Source: Candidatus Kaiserbacteria bacterium
GTDB lineage: Bacteria > Patescibacteriota > Minisyncoccia > Phycocordibacterales > Phycocordibacteraceae
Assembly (NCBI GenBank): GCA_016194455.1
Contig: JACQBN010000008.1
Location: 1 to 38,562, forward strand
DNA: 38,562 nucleotides
Direction: 5' to 3'
The position numbers and the translations under genes are program-made. The notes beneath the pieces were generated by a model, which did no database searches, was not told the DNA's origin, and worked only from the letters and a program-made list of their open reading frames with translations. Shown one piece after another: positions 1 through 11,856 of the stretch; the stretch's first letter is position 1; each line of letters begins with the position of its first letter.

Positions 1-813
1 AGCGTTTTCCCTGTGTGCGTTACGCAGGACGGCTTGGCGGCCTTCCGGCTGGCCGATCACTTCACACGCCTCGTGAATTCGGCGCGCATCATCGGCATCG
101 ACACGTTTGAAGGCGCCTGGACGCGCGAGCGGTTTGGGGATGCCGTGCGCGAGCTTGTGAAGGCGAACGATATTAGCCGCGATGTGCTCATTCGCGCCAC
201 GGTGCATGTCGTGGATTCGGTGCCCGGCGTGCGTTCACGCGGCCTCGCAACAGCTCTCAGCCTGTTCGCTTACGAAACAGAGCCAATTCTCTCTCAAACG
301 GGCGCACGCCTCACAACGAGCATGTGGCGCAGAGTCCCGGACGATGCGATTCCTTCACGCGCGAAGGTGAACGGCGCGTACGTCAACTCGGTGCTCGGGA
401 AGCAGGACGCGCTTGATAGAGGCGCCGACGACTGCGTATTCCTCGACCGGCTCGGGCACGTGTGCGAGTTGAGCGCGGCGAATATCTTCATGGTTCGAGG
501 CGGAGTCCTGATCACGCCCGGAGCCTCAAGCGACATTCTTGAGGGCATCACCCGCCGTACACTGCTTGAGCTCGCCCGCGACCTGGAGATCCCGAGTAGC
601 GAGCGCAGCATTGATCTCACCGAGCTCTATATCGCGGACGAAGTCTTCGCCTGCGGGACCTCAGCGTCCCTAGCGCCGGTGACAGAGATCGATACGCGAA
701 GAATCGGGAACGGCTCAATTGGACCGATTACCGCCGCCTTGAAGAAAAAGTATCGAGACATTCTTCACGGCGAAGACCCAAACTATACGCACCTGCTCAC
801 CGCACTCTCCTAA
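1..813 (+). CDS. Class IV (branched-chain type) aminotransferase, 5' end outside window
   Basis: PLP-dependent fold-type IV aminotransferase, the family of IlvE and D-amino-acid aminotransferase. The frame is open from base 1 and reads SVF, then an AFRLADHF segment equivalent to the family's N-terminal 'FRL..H..RL..SA' region, so the true start lies upstream. The probable PLP lysine is in SRAKVNGAYVNS. The conserved C-terminal part follows: LDRLGHVCELSAANIF, then a TPGASSDILEGITR segment. About 30-50 N-terminal residues are probably missing. Whether the substrate is a branched-chain amino acid or, for example, aminodeoxychorismate cannot be told from this part. It is convergent with the tRNA-Leu gene, with 16 bases between them and no evident terminator. 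Confidence 0.85.
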   Translation, partial: SVFPVCVTQDGLAAFRLADHFTRLVNSARIIGIDTFEGAWTRERFGDAVRELVKANDISRDVLIRATVHVVDSVPGVRSRGLATALSLFAYETEPILSQTGARLTTSMWRRVPDDAIPSRAKVNGAYVNSVLGKQDALDRGADDCVFLDRLGHVCELSAANIFMVRGGVLITPGASSDILEGITRRTLLELARDLEIPSSERSIDLTELYIADEVFACGTSASLAPVTEIDTRRIGNGSIGPITAALKKKYRDILHGEDPNYTHLLTALS

Positions 814-1303: not shown

Positions 1304-2823
1304 GATTCAATCAGCGCGAAGACGACGATTTCATCACCGGGGGCGGCATCCTCGCGCGCTTCTATCTCCACGCCGAAGTCGCCCTCGACACGGATCTCCT
1401 CTACGTTCGCGCGCGCGATCTGGAGATTAAGAATCTTGCCGCGCGCGATCTCGATCTCTCGCCGCAAGATCTTGATCTGCCTGCCAAGAGCGAAGACCCC
1501 GCCGAGGTAACGGACGCCAAGCACCTGGCGCTTCGCGCCGGAGGAGAAAGTCTTGAGCACCTTGCCGCGCCCGAGTTCGGTCTCAAGCATGACCCGCGGT
1601 GCACGTAGGATGAGAAGTTCTGAAATCTTTTTAGAAAGTTCGTAGATGACGGTAAATGATTCGATCGTGACGCCATCTCGGAGTGCGAGGTCACGCGCGG
1701 CCGCATCGGTCCCGACCGAGAAGGCGATGATGACGCCGTGCGCAGCGCTCGCGGCCTTCACATCGCTCTCGGAGACGGCACCCACGCCGGAGGCGAGAAG
1801 CGCGATCGCTACATGCTCGTGCGAGAGTTTTTTGATTTCGTGGAGGATGGCGTCGAGCGAGCCCTGCACGTCCGCCTTCACGACCAGCGCAAGCTCCGCG
1901 TCACTTGCGCGGGCGGTAACGTCTTCCTTGCTCCCTCGGGCCTCATCAGAATGAGTCAGCCAGTCGCTACGGAATCCGTCTCCGCCCGCGCTCGCCTGCG
2001 CACGTTTTTCAGCCTCTTTCTTTGATGCAGTAATCAAGAAAGGCGTACCGGCCGGCGGGAGCTTGGAGAAACCGCTGATGCGCACGGGCTCGGAGGGGCC
2101 CGCGGAGTCCACGCGTTTGCCGAGAAAGTTCTCAATGAAGCGCACGGGTGCGTACGCGTCGCCCGCTACGACGAATGAGCCCTGGCCGGGCAGGCCGGTC
2201 GCGAGCGTGCCGTCTTTGAGAATGAGCGTGGCGGAGGCGCCGCGCTTAGAATCTTGCGTTGATTCAAGCACAAACCCCTCGGCTGGCGCCTCGGGATCTG
2301 CGACCAACCCCACGAGGTCGGCAGAGAGAAGGACGAGGTCCCAAAGTTCCGGGATGCCCACGCCGCTTTTTGAAGAAATCGCCGCATAGGGCACCTCGCC
2401 GCCGAGTCCCTCAAGATACACCCCGTGCTCCAAGAGAGAATTTTTTGCGCGTTCAAGGTCAGCATTATTTTTATCAATCTTTGTCAACGCAACAACAAAC
2501 GGAATCTTCGCTTCCGTGATCGCGGCGAGCGCGTCAAGCGTCTGGGGCATCACGCCCTCGTCTGCGGCGACCACGAGAATCGCGATGTCCGCTGCTTGCG
2601 CTCCGCGCGCGCGCAGCGCCTTAAACGCTTCATGCCCGGGCGTATCGAGGAAGGTGACCGCGCGGCCGTTATGCTCGGCGACGTACGCGGCGACATGCTG
2701 GGTGATCCCGCCTGCCTCGCCCGCAACAACATTCGCCTTACGGATGTAATCCAAGAGCGAAGACTTCCCGTGATCTATGTGGCCCATCACCGCGATGATG
2801 GGCGGCCGTGCCTGCCGCGCCAT
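1300..2823 (-). CDS. infB: Translation initiation factor IF-2, short form
   Basis: IF-2 is the GTPase that brings initiator tRNA to the 30S subunit and promotes subunit joining. G motifs are clear: G1 GHIDHGKS (residues 14-21), G3 DTPGHE (60-65), G4 TKID (114-117) and G5 SSKSG (about 150-154), followed by the beta-barrel, IF-2 core and C-terminal domains. At 507 residues it starts directly at the GTPase domain and lacks the long N-terminal extension of most bacterial IF-2 (700-900 residues). This is common in reduced CPR genomes. A TATGAT hexamer lies 14 bases upstream of the ATG. It is followed by rbfA with a four-base overlap. Confidence 0.95.
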   Translation of the reverse strand: MARQARPPIIAVMGHIDHGKSSLLDYIRKANVVAGEAGGITQHVAAYVAEHNGRAVTFLDTPGHEAFKALRARGAQAADIAILVVAADEGVMPQTLDALAAITEAKIPFVVALTKIDKNNADLERAKNSLLEHGVYLEGLGGEVPYAAISSKSGVGIPELWDLVLLSADLVGLVADPEAPAEGFVLESTQDSKRGASATLILKDGTLATGLPGQGSFVVAGDAYAPVRFIENFLGKRVDSAGPSEPVRISGFSKLPPAGTPFLITASKKEAEKRAQASAGGDGFRSDWLTHSDEARGSKEDVTARASDAELALVVKADVQGSLDAILHEIKKLSHEHVAIALLASGVGAVSESDVKAASAAHGVIIAFSVGTDAAARDLALRDGVTIESFTVIYELSKKISELLILRAPRVMLETELGRGKVLKTFSSGAKRQVLGVRYLGGVFALGRQIKILRREIEIARGKILNLQIARANVEEIRVEGDFGVEIEAREDAAPGDEIVVFALIES

Positions 2824-2878
2824 AATCCCGCCATTTCATCATAAAAATCACCCATCTGCAATGCGTTAGAATGCGAGA

Positions 2879-3980
2879 ATGTTTTGGAAACGGAGAACCT
2901 ATCTTGATTACGCCGCGGGGGCGAGCGGGAATCCTTCGTCGCCGCATGCAGAAGGCCGTGCGGCCAAGGGTATGCTCGAAGATGCTCGGCGGGAGATTGC
3001 GCGTTTGGCGGAGGTGAAGCCGGATGACGTCATCTTCACGAGTGGCGCGACGGAGGCGAATGCAATCGCCATTCTCGGGATCGCGAAGCCCGGAGATCAT
3101 ATTTTTTATATGCCCGGGGCGCACGCCTCCATTGTGGAGAATATAAAACTGCTCGCCACGCGGGGCACGGATGTGGAGATGTTGCCGATCAAGGGCGGCC
3201 GCGTCGATACCGAATCGCTCAAGCAAATGATCCGCCCAAAGACGCGGCTTATCGCGATGGAGGCCGTCTGTGGCGAGACGGGGACGACCTGGAACACGCG
3301 CGAGGTTGCGCACTCCCTACAAGAATTTTTTGCTCGCTCGGGGCAGGGCAGCCACTCGCAAAAAATTCCTGCAGGTCGTGCGCTCTTGCATGTCGATGCA
3401 TCACAGGCGCCCTTGACCGAAAAGATCTCGCGTGCGCACTTCAGCGCCGACGTACTCACGTTTGACTCCGCGAAGGTCGGTGGCCCACGCGGCGTCGGCT
3501 GCCTTATCGCGCACCGGACTATCACGTGGATTGCGCAGCGGAAGCGAAGCGCCGGAGCTTGCAAGGGAATTCGCCGCGGCGCTCCGTGCCGCGGCGCACG
3601 GCCGCGCGGCGTTTCGTGCGCGCGGAGTTCAGCTGCGCGCGCAACTCATTGCTGCTCTTACAAACATTTCGCATCTGTATATAAACGAGGGACACGAAGG
3701 CGTGCCGCACATTCTCAACGTCTCGCTCGTAGAGCGCGACACTGATTATCTCGTCGCACTTTTGGATGAGGCGGGCTTTGCGGTCTCTACCCGGAGCGCC
3801 TGCGAGACGAATTCCGCGGAGGGCTCGCGCGCTGTCCTCGCGCTCACGGGTAATCCCGCGCGCGCGGACTCGACGCTGCGCATCTCGTGGGGTCCTGCGA
3901 CGACCTCTCGCGACCTCCGACTTTTCGCCGAAGCACTACGGAGGGCAGTAGCGTTTGTTGACAGCAAGGGCGCCAGGTAG
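2879..3980 (+). pseudogene. Cysteine desulfurase (NifS/IscS family), disrupted by internal deletion and frameshift
   Basis: Class V aminotransferase fold enzyme that takes sulfur from cysteine for Fe-S clusters and tRNA thiolation. Residues 1 to about 213 are in frame from ATG 2879 and include LDYAAGASGNPSS, TSGATEANAIAI and the PLP lysine near 199 (FDSAKVGGPRGVG). The remainder is in the next frame (to TAG 3978-3980) and contains RGLRSGSE and the catalytic-cysteine loop STRSACETNS. The switch falls near 3513-3530. There, about 11 residues including the conserved P..GGGQE stretch are missing, which suggests a deletion not divisible by three. The upstream frame alone runs to 3745 with non-family sequence. 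TAGAAT sits six bases before the ATG. This is either a true pseudogene or an assembly or sequencing error. Confidence 0.85.
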
Positions 3981-7820: not shown

Positions 7821-9080
7821 ATGAATGGCAACAGCATTGCCCAAATCGCCGCGATGGCGAAGGAATATAAGGCGTGGATGGACCAGTTCGACGATATGTT
7901 CGTTGGGCGTGGTAACCTCCTCAAGCTGATGCGCTATGCGCTCTTGATGCGTCAGCACATTCTCGTGTTCGGCCCGCCGGGCACCAGCAAAACGCAGCTC
8001 TGTGATCAGGTGTTCGCCGGCATCATCGGCGCGCCCAAGTTTGCAACCGAGCTCACGGCGTTTATGACCGAGGATGGTATCTTCGGTCCCTATAACGTCA
8101 AGCTCCTGCGCGAACAGGGCATCCTGGAACGCAACGTGAGCGGTATGCTGCCGCAGGCGGAGTTCGCTCGTCTCGGTGAGCTCTTGGACGCCAATCCGCA
8201 AACGCTCCGCTCGACGCTCGGTATCTTGAACGAGCGGCGGATGATGCGGGGCACACAGCAAATCAACGCGCCCCTCTTCACCGTCTACTGCGACACGAAC
8301 AAAGACCCCGCCGACTACATCAGGCGGAATCCTGACGCGTTCGCGGTGCTCGACCGTCTGCTGTTCATTGCGCAAGTTGGCTATCTCAAGGATCAAAAAG
8401 AAATCAGCGAGATGGTAAAACGCCACCAGCAAGGCCGGACGAAGATCCTGTCGCGGACCATCTCTGCAAACATCATCGAGAAGCTCTCGAGCTTCATCGT
8501 GCTGCCGCCGGGACTGATCACCGACCCGACTATCATCGACACCTTCGGCAGGGCGGTAGAGGAATACCGCGAGGCACGCAGGAAGATGAGTGACGAGGAG
8601 AAGAAAGCATTCATCTTGCCGGACATCTCCGATCGCCGCATTTGCCTCGCGAGCCAGCTGCTCGAGGTCGAAGCGATCCTCAACGGCCGCGTCGAAGCGA
8701 AGGTCGAGGACGTTCTTGCCGCCGTCATCGTCATCTGTATGAGCGAGGCCGAGCACAAGCTCTGGGAACCGATTGCCGGGGAGCATATCGAAGAGCATAA
8801 GAGAAACGCCGCTGCCCAGACCACCACCTCGCAGGGGTTGGCGATCAAGGGACTGTGCACGCAACTCGAGCAACAGGTGATCAGCGCTCTAGCGGGCACG
8901 CCGCTCTCCGAGATCGGCCACACATTCCAAGTATTGGCCGAACAGCTGAGTCTCATCAGCCCGAAGGATCCACAGGTCCAAAAGCTCTACGACGAAGCGA
9001 AAACGAAGTTCGCGGGAGCGCTCGGATTGTTGCAGAAGCGCACGCTCAACGAAAACGGCATTGCGAAACTCCCGTTCTGA
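7821..9080 (+). CDS. MoxR-family AAA+ ATPase, RavA-like, with altered Walker B
   Basis: 419-residue MoxR-type AAA+ ATPase. Members of the family act as chaperone-like motors and work with a VWA-domain partner, here the next gene. Walker A is GPPGTSKT (51-58). The segment MLPQAEFARLGELLDANP aligns with the RavA Walker B segment that contains FLDEI. At the usual Asp position there is Gly119 (codon GGT, 8175-8177), while the following Glu120 is kept. Sensor 1 is probably in YCDTNKDP and the arginine finger in VLDRLL. The C-terminal half (about 230-419) is a helical lid plus an unassigned region. A good Shine-Dalgarno AGGGAG lies before ATG 7821. A TTGACA occurs at 7724-7729, but I see no convincing -10 behind it. 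Confidence 0.88.
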   Translation: MNGNSIAQIAAMAKEYKAWMDQFDDMFVGRGNLLKLMRYALLMRQHILVFGPPGTSKTQLCDQVFAGIIGAPKFATELTAFMTEDGIFGPYNVKLLREQGILERNVSGMLPQAEFARLGELLDANPQTLRSTLGILNERRMMRGTQQINAPLFTVYCDTNKDPADYIRRNPDAFAVLDRLLFIAQVGYLKDQKEISEMVKRHQQGRTKILSRTISANIIEKLSSFIVLPPGLITDPTIIDTFGRAVEEYREARRKMSDEEKKAFILPDISDRRICLASQLLEVEAILNGRVEAKVEDVLAAVIVICMSEAEHKLWEPIAGEHIEEHKRNAAAQTTTSQGLAIKGLCTQLEQQVISALAGTPLSEIGHTFQVLAEQLSLISPKDPQVQKLYDEAKTKFAGALGLLQKRTLNENGIAKLPF

Positions 9081-9085
9081 CAGAT

Positions 9086-9170
9086 GCGCGTGCGGCGGAT
9101 ACAACCGCCGCACGCGCCATCCGCCTCGCGGCGGATATGTATAAGGGGCGGAGACATCGTCGGCCCCTTA
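9086..9170 (+). other. Three tandem hairpins between the moxR-like and VWA genes
   Basis: Three perfect inverted repeats follow the moxR-like stop. Hairpin 1 has 13-bp arms at 9086-9098 and 9105-9117 with loop ATACAA. Hairpin 2 is ATCCGCC-TCGC-GGCGGAT at 9119-9136. Hairpin 3 is TAAGGGGC/GCCCCTTA at 9142-9149 and 9163-9170. None is followed directly by a T run, so they are not standard terminators. They may stabilise or process the mRNA and set the ratio of the two proteins. Confidence 0.75.
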
Positions 9171-9221
9171 CAGTATCCGACACGTTTTTGTTCTTTCCAT
9201 CAGACAACCCAGGAGTGCTCC

Positions 9222-10154
9222 ATGGAACTCTTATTGTTTGGACTAGCAGCGCTTGCCGCTGCCGCTCTCGCATACTTGCTCTCGCGGGGGAAGCCTAAAG
9301 ACGAAACTCCAAAGGCCGAGCCGAAAGACGACGAAATACCCGACGCGGGGGAGGAAGAGCCCGGGCATGCAGCTGGCTCCGAGCCGCCACGCGAACAGCC
9401 TCGGTACCAAGCCCGCACCGCTGCCGCAATCGAGAAGATTGCGGATCGCATCGTCTTCGCCGCCGGCGTCGGCGTCTTCAAAGATATGAAGGTCGGCGAG
9501 ATGTTAGTCCCCTCGCCGATTCCGAGCGATGAAATCGGCATTCGGCCCATCCGCGAGATTGCGGAAATCCCGCAGACGCTCCCGGACGCGCTCGCGGTCG
9601 ACGACGACCGCTTCTACGCCGCCCTGGCCGCTCACCGGCTACCAGTGATCGAATACCAAGAGCGCGTCGATGTCCGCGAGGATATAACGGGTCAGCCCCG
9701 GAAAATCCTCGTACTCATCGTCGATGTCTCCGGCAGCATGGGAGAGGATGGCCGCATTGAATGGGCCATTGGCCTCTGCCACGCAGCGATTAAGAGAGCA
9801 ATCGCCGCGAATGCCGAAATAGCTCTGCTTCCGTTCACGGGCCGACCTGGGACGTGGCGTCACGCTGTGGGGAAGGACGAATGCCTCCTGCTCTCCAACC
9901 GACTCACGCAGTTCCTTACTCCGGACGGCGGCACGAGCATCAGGCTCGCGCTTGATGAAGGAATCCGGTTCCTCGCGGAGGAGACCTTCACAGATCGCCA
10001 GATCCTGCTTATCACCGACGGCGATGATAACGTTGACGCAGAGGGCACTCGTAACGCTCTCTCCTCCATCGGCGCAGTGCTCCACACGGTTTGCATCGGG
10101 CCCGGTAACCCGGATCTCCAGCAAGCCTCGGCGCATTACGACTTGCTTGCATGA
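9222..10154 (+). CDS. Membrane-anchored von Willebrand factor A domain protein
   Basis: 310 residues from ATG 9222. The start was chosen because AGGAG lies at 9211-9215 and because the protein then opens with a membrane anchor (LLLFGLAALAAAALAYLL, residues 3-20). An acidic/Pro linker (about 25-60) and an unassigned region follow, then a VWA domain with a complete MIDAS: DVSGS (168-172), Thr238 in DGGTSI and Asp266 in LITDGDD. MoxR ATPases often pair with VWA proteins that bind metal and partner proteins. Anchoring at the membrane suggests that the pair works on envelope proteins (inference). It is followed by a strong terminator. Confidence 0.88.
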   Translation: MELLLFGLAALAAAALAYLLSRGKPKDETPKAEPKDDEIPDAGEEEPGHAAGSEPPREQPRYQARTAAAIEKIADRIVFAAGVGVFKDMKVGEMLVPSPIPSDEIGIRPIREIAEIPQTLPDALAVDDDRFYAALAAHRLPVIEYQERVDVREDITGQPRKILVLIVDVSGSMGEDGRIEWAIGLCHAAIKRAIAANAEIALLPFTGRPGTWRHAVGKDECLLLSNRLTQFLTPDGGTSIRLALDEGIRFLAEETFTDRQILLITDGDDNVDAEGTRNALSSIGAVLHTVCIGPGNPDLQQASAHYDLLA

Positions 10155-10189: not shown

Positions 10190-10260
10190 GACCGCACTAT
10201 TTGTTTCAGTGCGGTGGGGAAAGTCATCCCGAATTTGCCGAAGGGCGGTACAATGGTGCC

Positions 10261-11247
10261 ATGCGCCTCCGCGCTCTCTTGCTTGCTCTTGCGCCTTTGG
10301 CGCTTCTCGCCATTCCTTTGGCAGCGCACGCGACCGGCATTCCCTACTTCGGCCCCATCGTGCCGACCAACGCCTCGACCTGCGCCGCCGGCTGGCAGAG
10401 TCTCATCCAGCTCATCAACAATCTTGTCGCGCTCTTGATCACGCTCGCGATCGTATTCGTGGCGCCCATCATGATCGCGTATTCTGGTTTCCTCTACGTC
10501 GTGAATCCGGTCAAGCCCGAGGGCAGGAGCGAGGCGAATAAAATATTACGGAACACGGTCGTCGGCATCGTCATCGCGCTCGCCGCGTGGCTCATCGTAG
10601 ACGCGATCCTCACCGCGCTCACGACCCGCGGCATCAACGCGTGGACGAGCGGGCTCTTCAACAGCGGCTACGCCCCCTGCCTCCTTACCGACCAACAGCT
10701 CGCGACCTTCAACCAAAGTGCTGGCCAGACCACGAGCGGAGCAAGCGGCGCGGGTGGGACCGGAGCTCCGCTCTTGGCGGGCGGCAGCGGCGCCTGCGAT
10801 CCCTCGGTGGTCGCGCAGGGAGCGGCCGCAGGCGGTCAAGGCACCATCAGCAGCAACGAGGCTGGCATGCTTGCCTGCTTCGCACGTTACGAGAGTGCCT
10901 GCGGTACCAGCAACAATCTCAACTACAACTGGGGCAACGGATCAAGCGCAGCCGGAGCGCTCCAGGTAACCCTAAAAGGCAACAGCAGCTGTTACGACAA
11001 CGCTGCTTGCGAGGCGGCCGCGGGGACACCGGGCGTACCCCTCAACTGTGCTTCCGGATTCGACGGTCACGGAAACCCGATTCCCGGCAGTTCGGTGGTC
11101 GGTACCTGTACACAAGCGGCGGCAAATCTCGACTGCAGTTCTGCAGCGGCCGCATGCGTCTATGCGAAGCAGGGTCCCTCGGCCTGGACCGCCGACTCTC
11201 ACAGCGCGGGGCAACAGAGTTGCGTCAACCAATATGGCGGCGGCTGA
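10261..11247 (+). CDS. VirB2/TrbC-like membrane protein fused to a lysozyme-like (transglycosylase-like) domain
   Basis: 328 residues. It has a signal peptide (1-24, ending AAHA), a short exported segment and two membrane helices (about 54-77 and 98-120) flanking a cytoplasmic-like loop (NPVKPEGRSEANK). This is the hairpin layout of VirB2/TrbC pilin-like proteins abundant in CPR genomes. After a Ser/Gly/Ala linker (about 150-195), the C-terminal part has ACFARYESACG with a candidate catalytic Glu211, then GSSAAGALQVT and several cysteines. This matches the E...S..GA.GLMQ layout of lytic transglycosylases. It may open peptidoglycan for a surface fibre (inference). TACAAT lies six bases before the ATG and no Shine-Dalgarno sequence is visible, which predicts a leaderless mRNA. 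In-frame codons extend upstream, but without a supporting signal. Confidence 0.75.
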   Translation: MRLRALLLALAPLALLAIPLAAHATGIPYFGPIVPTNASTCAAGWQSLIQLINNLVALLITLAIVFVAPIMIAYSGFLYVVNPVKPEGRSEANKILRNTVVGIVIALAAWLIVDAILTALTTRGINAWTSGLFNSGYAPCLLTDQQLATFNQSAGQTTSGASGAGGTGAPLLAGGSGACDPSVVAQGAAAGGQGTISSNEAGMLACFARYESACGTSNNLNYNWGNGSSAAGALQVTLKGNSSCYDNAACEAAAGTPGVPLNCASGFDGHGNPIPGSSVVGTCTQAAANLDCSSAAAACVYAKQGPSAWTADSHSAGQQSCVNQYGGG

Positions 11248-11265
11248 TACGTTATGATGACCAAC

Positions 11266-11856
11266 ATGACGCGTTATCTACTCATCGGAGCTCTCGCGAT
11301 TATCGTCGTCGGTGGCGCGCTCTACCTTTTTTCTGGGACAAATAAAAACGCGGGGACGACCACCAATTCCTCGCCAGGATTACCGGCAGCGGGCTCCACC
11401 GGGCAGAGCTCGTCGGGCTCCGCGACTGGCCCCGGCACTCCCGCTTCGACACTGATCCTGCCTGAGCGCGACACGAGCACGTCCATCACCACCAACGATT
11501 TCATCCACAACGGTACGACGATCGAGGACCCGGAAAACAAAGGAGACTATTATCTCGCCGGAAGCCTTGGCTATTGCCTCAAGGACGGCACGTGCCCCTC
11601 AGGCGCTCCCTCAAATGATTACCACATTGTCTATTTCTCGAAGGATCAATCATTCACGATCGCGCTTATTAAAGAATCGATTGGTACCGCGCGGCTTGCG
11701 GCCGAACAATTCCTGCTCGCAACGCTTGGCGTCTCGGAGAACGATCTTTGCAACTTAAAGTATTACGTTGGTACGGACATTTACACTAATTCCCTCTACG
11801 CCGGCAAGAATCTCGGCTTCAGCTTCTGCCCCGGCGCGACCGCGCTCCCGAAATAG
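11266..11856 (+). CDS. Membrane-anchored protein of unknown function
   Basis: 196 residues from ATG 11266. ATGs at 11254 and 11257 are also in frame. I prefer 11266 because TATGAT (11253-11258) lies seven bases before it and the protein then opens directly with a membrane anchor (YLLIGALAIIVVGGALYLF). A Gly/Ser/Thr-rich linker (about 25-60) leads to a globular domain of about 130 residues with four cysteines (two around YCLKDGTC, then DLCNL and SFCPG) that could form disulfides outside the cell. I do not recognise the family. It follows the VirB2-like gene by 18 bases and may serve the same surface structure. Confidence 0.7.
   Translation: MTRYLLIGALAIIVVGGALYLFSGTNKNAGTTTNSSPGLPAAGSTGQSSSGSATGPGTPASTLILPERDTSTSITTNDFIHNGTTIEDPENKGDYYLAGSLGYCLKDGTCPSGAPSNDYHIVYFSKDQSFTIALIKESIGTARLAAEQFLLATLGVSENDLCNLKYYVGTDIYTNSLYAGKNLGFSFCPGATALPK

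Follow-up and report, generated by a model that had tools for sequence, protein, structure and literature searches.

A type IV secretion pilin hairpin fused to a predicted lysozyme-like head at a conserved locus of Kaiserbacteria, with other wall-hydrolase heads in related genomes

A single gene of Candidatus Kaiserbacteria encodes a protein in which a VirB2-like pilin hairpin of type IV secretion systems (T4SS) is joined to a predicted lysozyme/lytic transglycosylase-like domain, and comparison with related genomes reveals that the hairpin stalk stays at a conserved locus while the head is exchanged among several kinds of wall hydrolase, an observation that goes beyond the preliminary description of this DNA. 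The bacteria of this group are tiny, have reduced genomes and are thought to live on other microbes. The gene lies in a stretch of 38,562 nucleotides (the window), which is part of contig C9 of a 0.6 Mb assembly that is 83% complete, and whose relevant features are the following:

1..141, no strand assigned: 141 bases identical to the end of contig C26, with which they overlap (contig sequence comparison)
10214..10254, + strand: conserved promoter-like block (aligned upstream DNA of 25 loci, the window and 24 relatives)
10261..11247, + strand: pilin-hydrolase fusion protein, 328 amino acids (Pfam, homologues, family alignment, AF2)
10261..10335, + strand: signal peptide, residues about 1-25, boundary inferred (hydropathy, family alignment)
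10393..10620, + strand: two-helix T4SS_pilin (VirB2-like) hairpin, residues 45-120 (PF18895, AF2 helices)
10621..10791, + strand: linker, residues 121-177, of which 139-174 are predicted disordered (AF2 pLDDT <50)
10792..11244, + strand: lysozyme/lytic transglycosylase-like domain, residues 178-328 (profile, AF2, structural neighbours, head comparison)
10891..10893, + strand: codon of E211, the predicted catalytic acid (invariant in 21 sequences, aligned with lysozyme Glu35)
10939..10965, + strand: GSSAAGALQ motif (A230, G232, Q235), corresponding to the loops GAxGLMQ of SLT and STDYGILQ of lysozyme (alignments)
11254..11856, + strand: companion protein with an N-terminal membrane helix and an exported domain of roughly 135 amino acids, starting 6 nt past the fusion stop

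The preliminary description had placed the reading frame correctly at 10261-11247. An upstream TTG at 10201 offers a possible longer start, but we retain the ATG at 10261, since homologues begin there and the promoter-like block stops just 5' of it. Hydropathy and the family alignment agree on the proposed signal peptide; hydrophobic segments lie at about residues 10-18, 55-73 and 103-114, and ten of the twelve cysteines indeed fall within the C-terminal domain. The AF2 model of the whole protein has a pTM of 0.50 and a linker of low confidence, so that the relative placement of the two halves is not fixed. A chance juxtaposition of two separate ORFs was considered and ruled out, the frame being single and continuous in many relatives; homologous fusions at the same locus in many genomes of the same genus likewise argue against chance.

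In the window the upstream block consists of GTGGGGAAAG, a spacer and a -10-like box (TACAAT) whose end lies about 6 nt 5' of the ATG. Across the 25 loci it comprises a GTGGGG(G)AAAAGC block, often palindromic, and a TATGAT/TACAAT box ending 5-7 nt 5' of the ATG; the spacer is palindromic in several relatives, and no Shine-Dalgarno is evident in the upstream block of the aligned loci. This organization suggests a dedicated promoter and a leaderless mRNA. A regulon governed by the block was ruled out, as a genome-wide search met the combined pattern at a single place.

The N-terminal half was recognized by the Pfam family T4SS_pilin (PF18895), which matches residues 48-116 with 28.9 bits against a cut-off of 26.6 in the Pfam search and with 31.8 bits in a genome scan, and the AF2 model contains two helices (residues 45-81 and 86-120) where a VirB2-like hairpin had been predicted. 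Profile searches thus bear out the pilin assignment through PF18895, but not through the classical TrbC/VirB2 model PF04956, which gave no match to the fusion protein up to E 1 in the Pfam search; NCBIfam returned a sub-threshold match to the Mbov_0395 pilin-like family across the same stretch. Together, the PF18895 match, the signal peptide and the hairpin, which is better conserved than the head across relatives, support a T4SS/VirB2-like pilin. A scan of the phylum also revealed pilin-domain matches within open frames as long as 3,000 to 14,000 codons in several Patescibacteria (e.g., G143:C1 and G130:C1), which suggests that the T4SS_pilin hairpin is a widespread N-terminal module.

The C-terminal half alone has no match in Pfam or NCBIfam, neither SLT (PF01464) nor SLT_3 (PF18896) matches the window protein, and a single-sequence search of the PDB with the fusion protein gave nothing useful. 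A family profile built from 21 homologues of the head finds animal lysozymes in the PDB (best 1lmt, E 0.0013; 6ukc, E 0.0027), aligning E211 with their catalytic Glu and GSSAAGALQ with STDYGIFQ. The lytic transglycosylase-type E...GSSAAGALQ layout noted in the preliminary description holds across the family, E211, A230, G232 and Q235 being invariant in all 21 sequences. The AF2 model, with pLDDT >90 across most of residues 178-328, has the fly digestive lysozyme 2fbd as its top VIA-align neighbour (Z 8.8, rmsd 3.4, 107 residues aligned), and all 50 listed rows belong to the lysozyme/lytic transglycosylase superfamily, including hen lysozyme, MltC, MltE and DslA, with no other fold among them, in line with the lysozyme fold proposed earlier. 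However, the VIA-align list is a re-examination of candidates from a Foldseek search of the fusion that was itself weak (no significant match, best E about 5), and the case for the fold therefore rests on the concord of profile, model and conserved residues. Where C-type lysozymes carry Asp52, the family invariably has Ala (A230), the residue that SLT enzymes show in their GAxG loop, and a profile comparison of lysozyme-type with SLT-type heads aligned 111 columns (E 2.7e-4 for the pair) with both the Glu and the GAxG loop matched; the invariant Ala and the SLT-like loop point to a single-Glu mechanism. Sequence and model thus support membership of the C-terminal domain in the lysozyme/lytic transglycosylase superfamily, with a conserved predicted catalytic Glu. 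Neither of the two outcomes that would have refuted the preliminary description, a head that does not model as a lysozyme fold and a Glu that varies, was observed.

Homologues were identified in 53 of the 59 relatives searched, fusions occurring mostly within the same genus, and the order clpB, variable genes, fusion, miaA and peroxiredoxin (prx) is kept in about 20 loci of Kaiserbacteria-like genomes. The head at this slot is lysozyme-like in most loci, a canonical SLT domain in G006, G015 and G016 (PF01464, E 4e-11 to 2e-15), a VanY-type peptidase in G701 (PF02557, E 1.8e-13) and another His/Asp-motif domain in G002, G003, G018, G019, G022, G029 and G034, while G025 has a bare pilin. PF01464 is matched by the relatives L013, L022 and L030, the G772 head gives a weaker VanY match, and L141 holds VanY (PF02557, 50.8 bits, cut-off 25) and T4SS_pilin (43.8 bits) in one protein. 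Heads with the motif SHxxGxxxD...ExxH have no PDB or Pfam match and compare weakly with the VanY profile; they are called peptidases by motif alone, as profiles place them in no known peptidase family. On a housekeeping phylogeny (FastTree, seven genes, 35 genomes), head class changes at least 10 times, an approximate count given uneven node support, against an average of 15.6 and a minimum of 11 with shuffled labels, indicating that head class follows descent to some extent but changes frequently.

In the window, the genes lying between clpB and the fusion include those for a vWA protein and a MoxR-type AAA ATPase (7821-10154), which have no counterpart at this site in the compared relatives, where the gap holds other genes. 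Reverse-transcriptase-like ORF fragments lie alongside the fusion locus of G030 (L060:11025-12091), and a repeat scan found no direct repeats of >=30 bases near them.

The companion protein encoded immediately downstream is tied to one head type. In the tree set (35), each of the 23 lysozyme-type loci has a homologue of it next to the fusion, and the 12 other loci have none; in the first 29 genomes its association with the lysozyme head gives a Fisher p of 5e-8, a value that overstates independence. Its presence changes at least six times on the tree, the lysozyme head changing along each time. From this strict co-occurrence we infer that the companion probably binds or restrains the lysozyme-type head. 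Its exported domain is modelled with confidence by AF2 (mean pLDDT 84.5), but the protein has no Pfam match, no significant Foldseek match and no recognizable fold, that of a known inhibitor included. The VIA-align rows for the companion (best Z 4.0, a methyltransferase; TipC2 at 3.5) are at noise level, and nothing was drawn from them.

G010, G011, G679, G701 and G757 each have a glycosidase-type fusion next to a peptidase-type one, and comparable pairs occur in further families of the order (L097, L124, L132, L139, L140). Fusions of the T4SS_pilin hairpin to SLT/SLT_3 heads also extend to other families within the phylum. In Gram-positive bacteria, a single VirB1 chain unites SLT and CHAP domains (PMC12102498), and the tandem pairs therefore fit a wall-opening role. 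A protein from another family of the phylum (L109:436-2208) contains T4SS_pilin, SLT and a GDSL-lipase-like region together.

The genome also encodes further T4SS components. A virB4 gene (PF19044, E 4.3e-26) with dnaA nearby is present at C17:54949-55863, on a different contig from the fusion gene, and seven of the eight T4SS_pilin matches of the genome lie outside the window, six of them as an array on C26. Through the 141-base overlap, these six domains, encoded on the strand of the fusion gene, would fall about 0.35-2.6 kb outside the start of the window and about 10-13 kb upstream of the fusion; a pilin match about 12-13 kb from the fusion in G023, G024 and G029 agrees with this spacing, so that the linkage of array and fusion is given by contig overlap together with similar spacing in some relatives. 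With regard to a VirB1 encoded among T4SS genes, the head is hydrolase-like and predicted to be exported, but virB4 lies on another contig, and a pilin array adjoins the window by that overlap. Near virB4 and dnaA lies a second long pilin (L046, about 2060-3670; contig C17 of G000) with a Cys-rich C-terminal domain of no recognized family.

No free SLT gene (PF01464) was found in the window's genome, which is 83% complete, so a separate VirB1 may simply be missing from the assembly; among the same-genus relatives G001-G020, SLT matches amount to three pilin heads and one in G019. A 2025 survey found that most Patescibacteria with VirB2-like pilins lack VirB1, and that pilus biogenesis seems not to need it (PMC12102498). 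A fused VirB1 is one explanation for this gap.

On balance we favour, with moderate confidence, a VirB2-VirB1 fusion, i.e., a pilin-tethered peptidoglycan hydrolase that would open the wall where a pilus or secretion machinery passes. From sequence and model, the protein would sit in the cell membrane by means of its signal peptide and hairpin, a charged loop facing inward and the head held outside by a flexible tether; the head would cut glycan strands with one catalytic Glu, working beside the pilus/T4SS machinery at its crossing point, and the companion at 11254-11856 would probably hold lysozyme-type heads in check. An SLT head, a peptidase head or a glycosidase/peptidase pair may play the same role in other genomes, and the protein may assemble into a fibre. 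As the target we favour the cell's own wall where assembly takes place, the main alternative being a host wall touching the fibre, and the drilling of the own or the host's wall during construction of a surface fibre, as envisaged in the preliminary description, is plausible.

Host walls are the target in a possible but clearly less probable scenario, in which heads displayed on a fibre cut the host wall, head exchange reflects host range, and the companion is an immunity protein or inhibitor for the lysozyme type. Frequent switches among close relatives, whose own wall is unlikely to differ much, and the strict pairing of the companion with lysozyme heads both speak for it, as does the proposal that lytic transglycosylases of Patescibacteria act on host envelopes (PMC11665869). 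However, at the SLT-type and peptidase-type loci that were checked no partner gene lies between the head and miaA, which means that self-protection is not a general feature; moreover, the companion has no recognized inhibitor fold, and there is no known host. Somewhat more doubtful still is the idea of an exchangeable-head weapon or drill, whereby wall-cutting enzymes of lysozyme-like, transglycosylase, D,D-carboxypeptidase or other type, at times as a glycosidase-type and peptidase-type pair, would be shown outside a secretion pilus and breach the host wall, and a head-specific partner would shield the producer.

An ordinary membrane-tethered autolysin for growth or division, unrelated to any pilus and using the hairpin as a mere membrane anchor, would agree with a lone gene between clpB and miaA, outside any T4SS operon, and such a general enzyme could tolerate a bare pilin at the slot in one relative and different enzymes in others. 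We nonetheless consider it unlikely, given that the hairpin serving as anchor is that of a T4SS pilin in particular, is better conserved than the head and appears again with SLT/SLT_3 heads in further families of the phylum, and that the fusion co-occurs with arrays of short pilins. A head keeping the lysozyme fold as a binding module without catalysis appears highly improbable: it would account for the lack of an Asp52 equivalent, but the Glu is invariant, the loop is SLT-like, and canonical SLT and VanY heads substitute at the same slot.

The VirB2-VirB1 fusion can be set against several known systems. It shares a signal peptide, hairpin, Pfam match and occurrence of several pilins per genome with the VirB2-like T4SS pilins of Patescibacteria (PF18895; arrays in PMC12102498), but has about 200 extra residues with an enzyme-like head and is not adjacent to virB4. 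Like VirB1 and its Gram-positive counterparts (TraG of pIP501, PrgK; SLT plus CHAP), it is an exported or anchored predicted peptidoglycan hydrolase; glycosidase and peptidase are used together there, as they are here in glycosidase-type and peptidase-type pilins, although here each catalytic type has its own pilin hairpin, often in two tandem genes. With C-type and insect digestive lysozymes (2fbd, 3cb7) and E. coli MltC/MltE, the head shares a predicted fold, catalytic Glu and G..Q loop; it differs from C-type lysozymes (GH22) in lacking Asp52, and from all of these in being both bacterial and tethered to a pilin. The lysozyme-like family SLT_3 (PF18896), although not matching the window protein itself, gives above-cut-off matches to heads in several relatives, in proteins where these are fused to PF18895. 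As these two accessions are neighbours, we would guess that Pfam curators may have met such a fusion. No published description of the fusion was found in the open literature, while earlier mention in subscription papers or preprints is possible.

An enzyme present but hidden in a pilin gene would give a direct and testable answer to the absence of VirB1 (PMC12102498), and could explain how reduced genomes cope without a separate wall-opening enzyme. The companion, like head exchange new beyond the preliminary description, is a specific protein of no recognizable fold that goes with one head type. Finally, head swapping gives a starting point for understanding how these bacteria get through cell walls, be it their own or those of a host.
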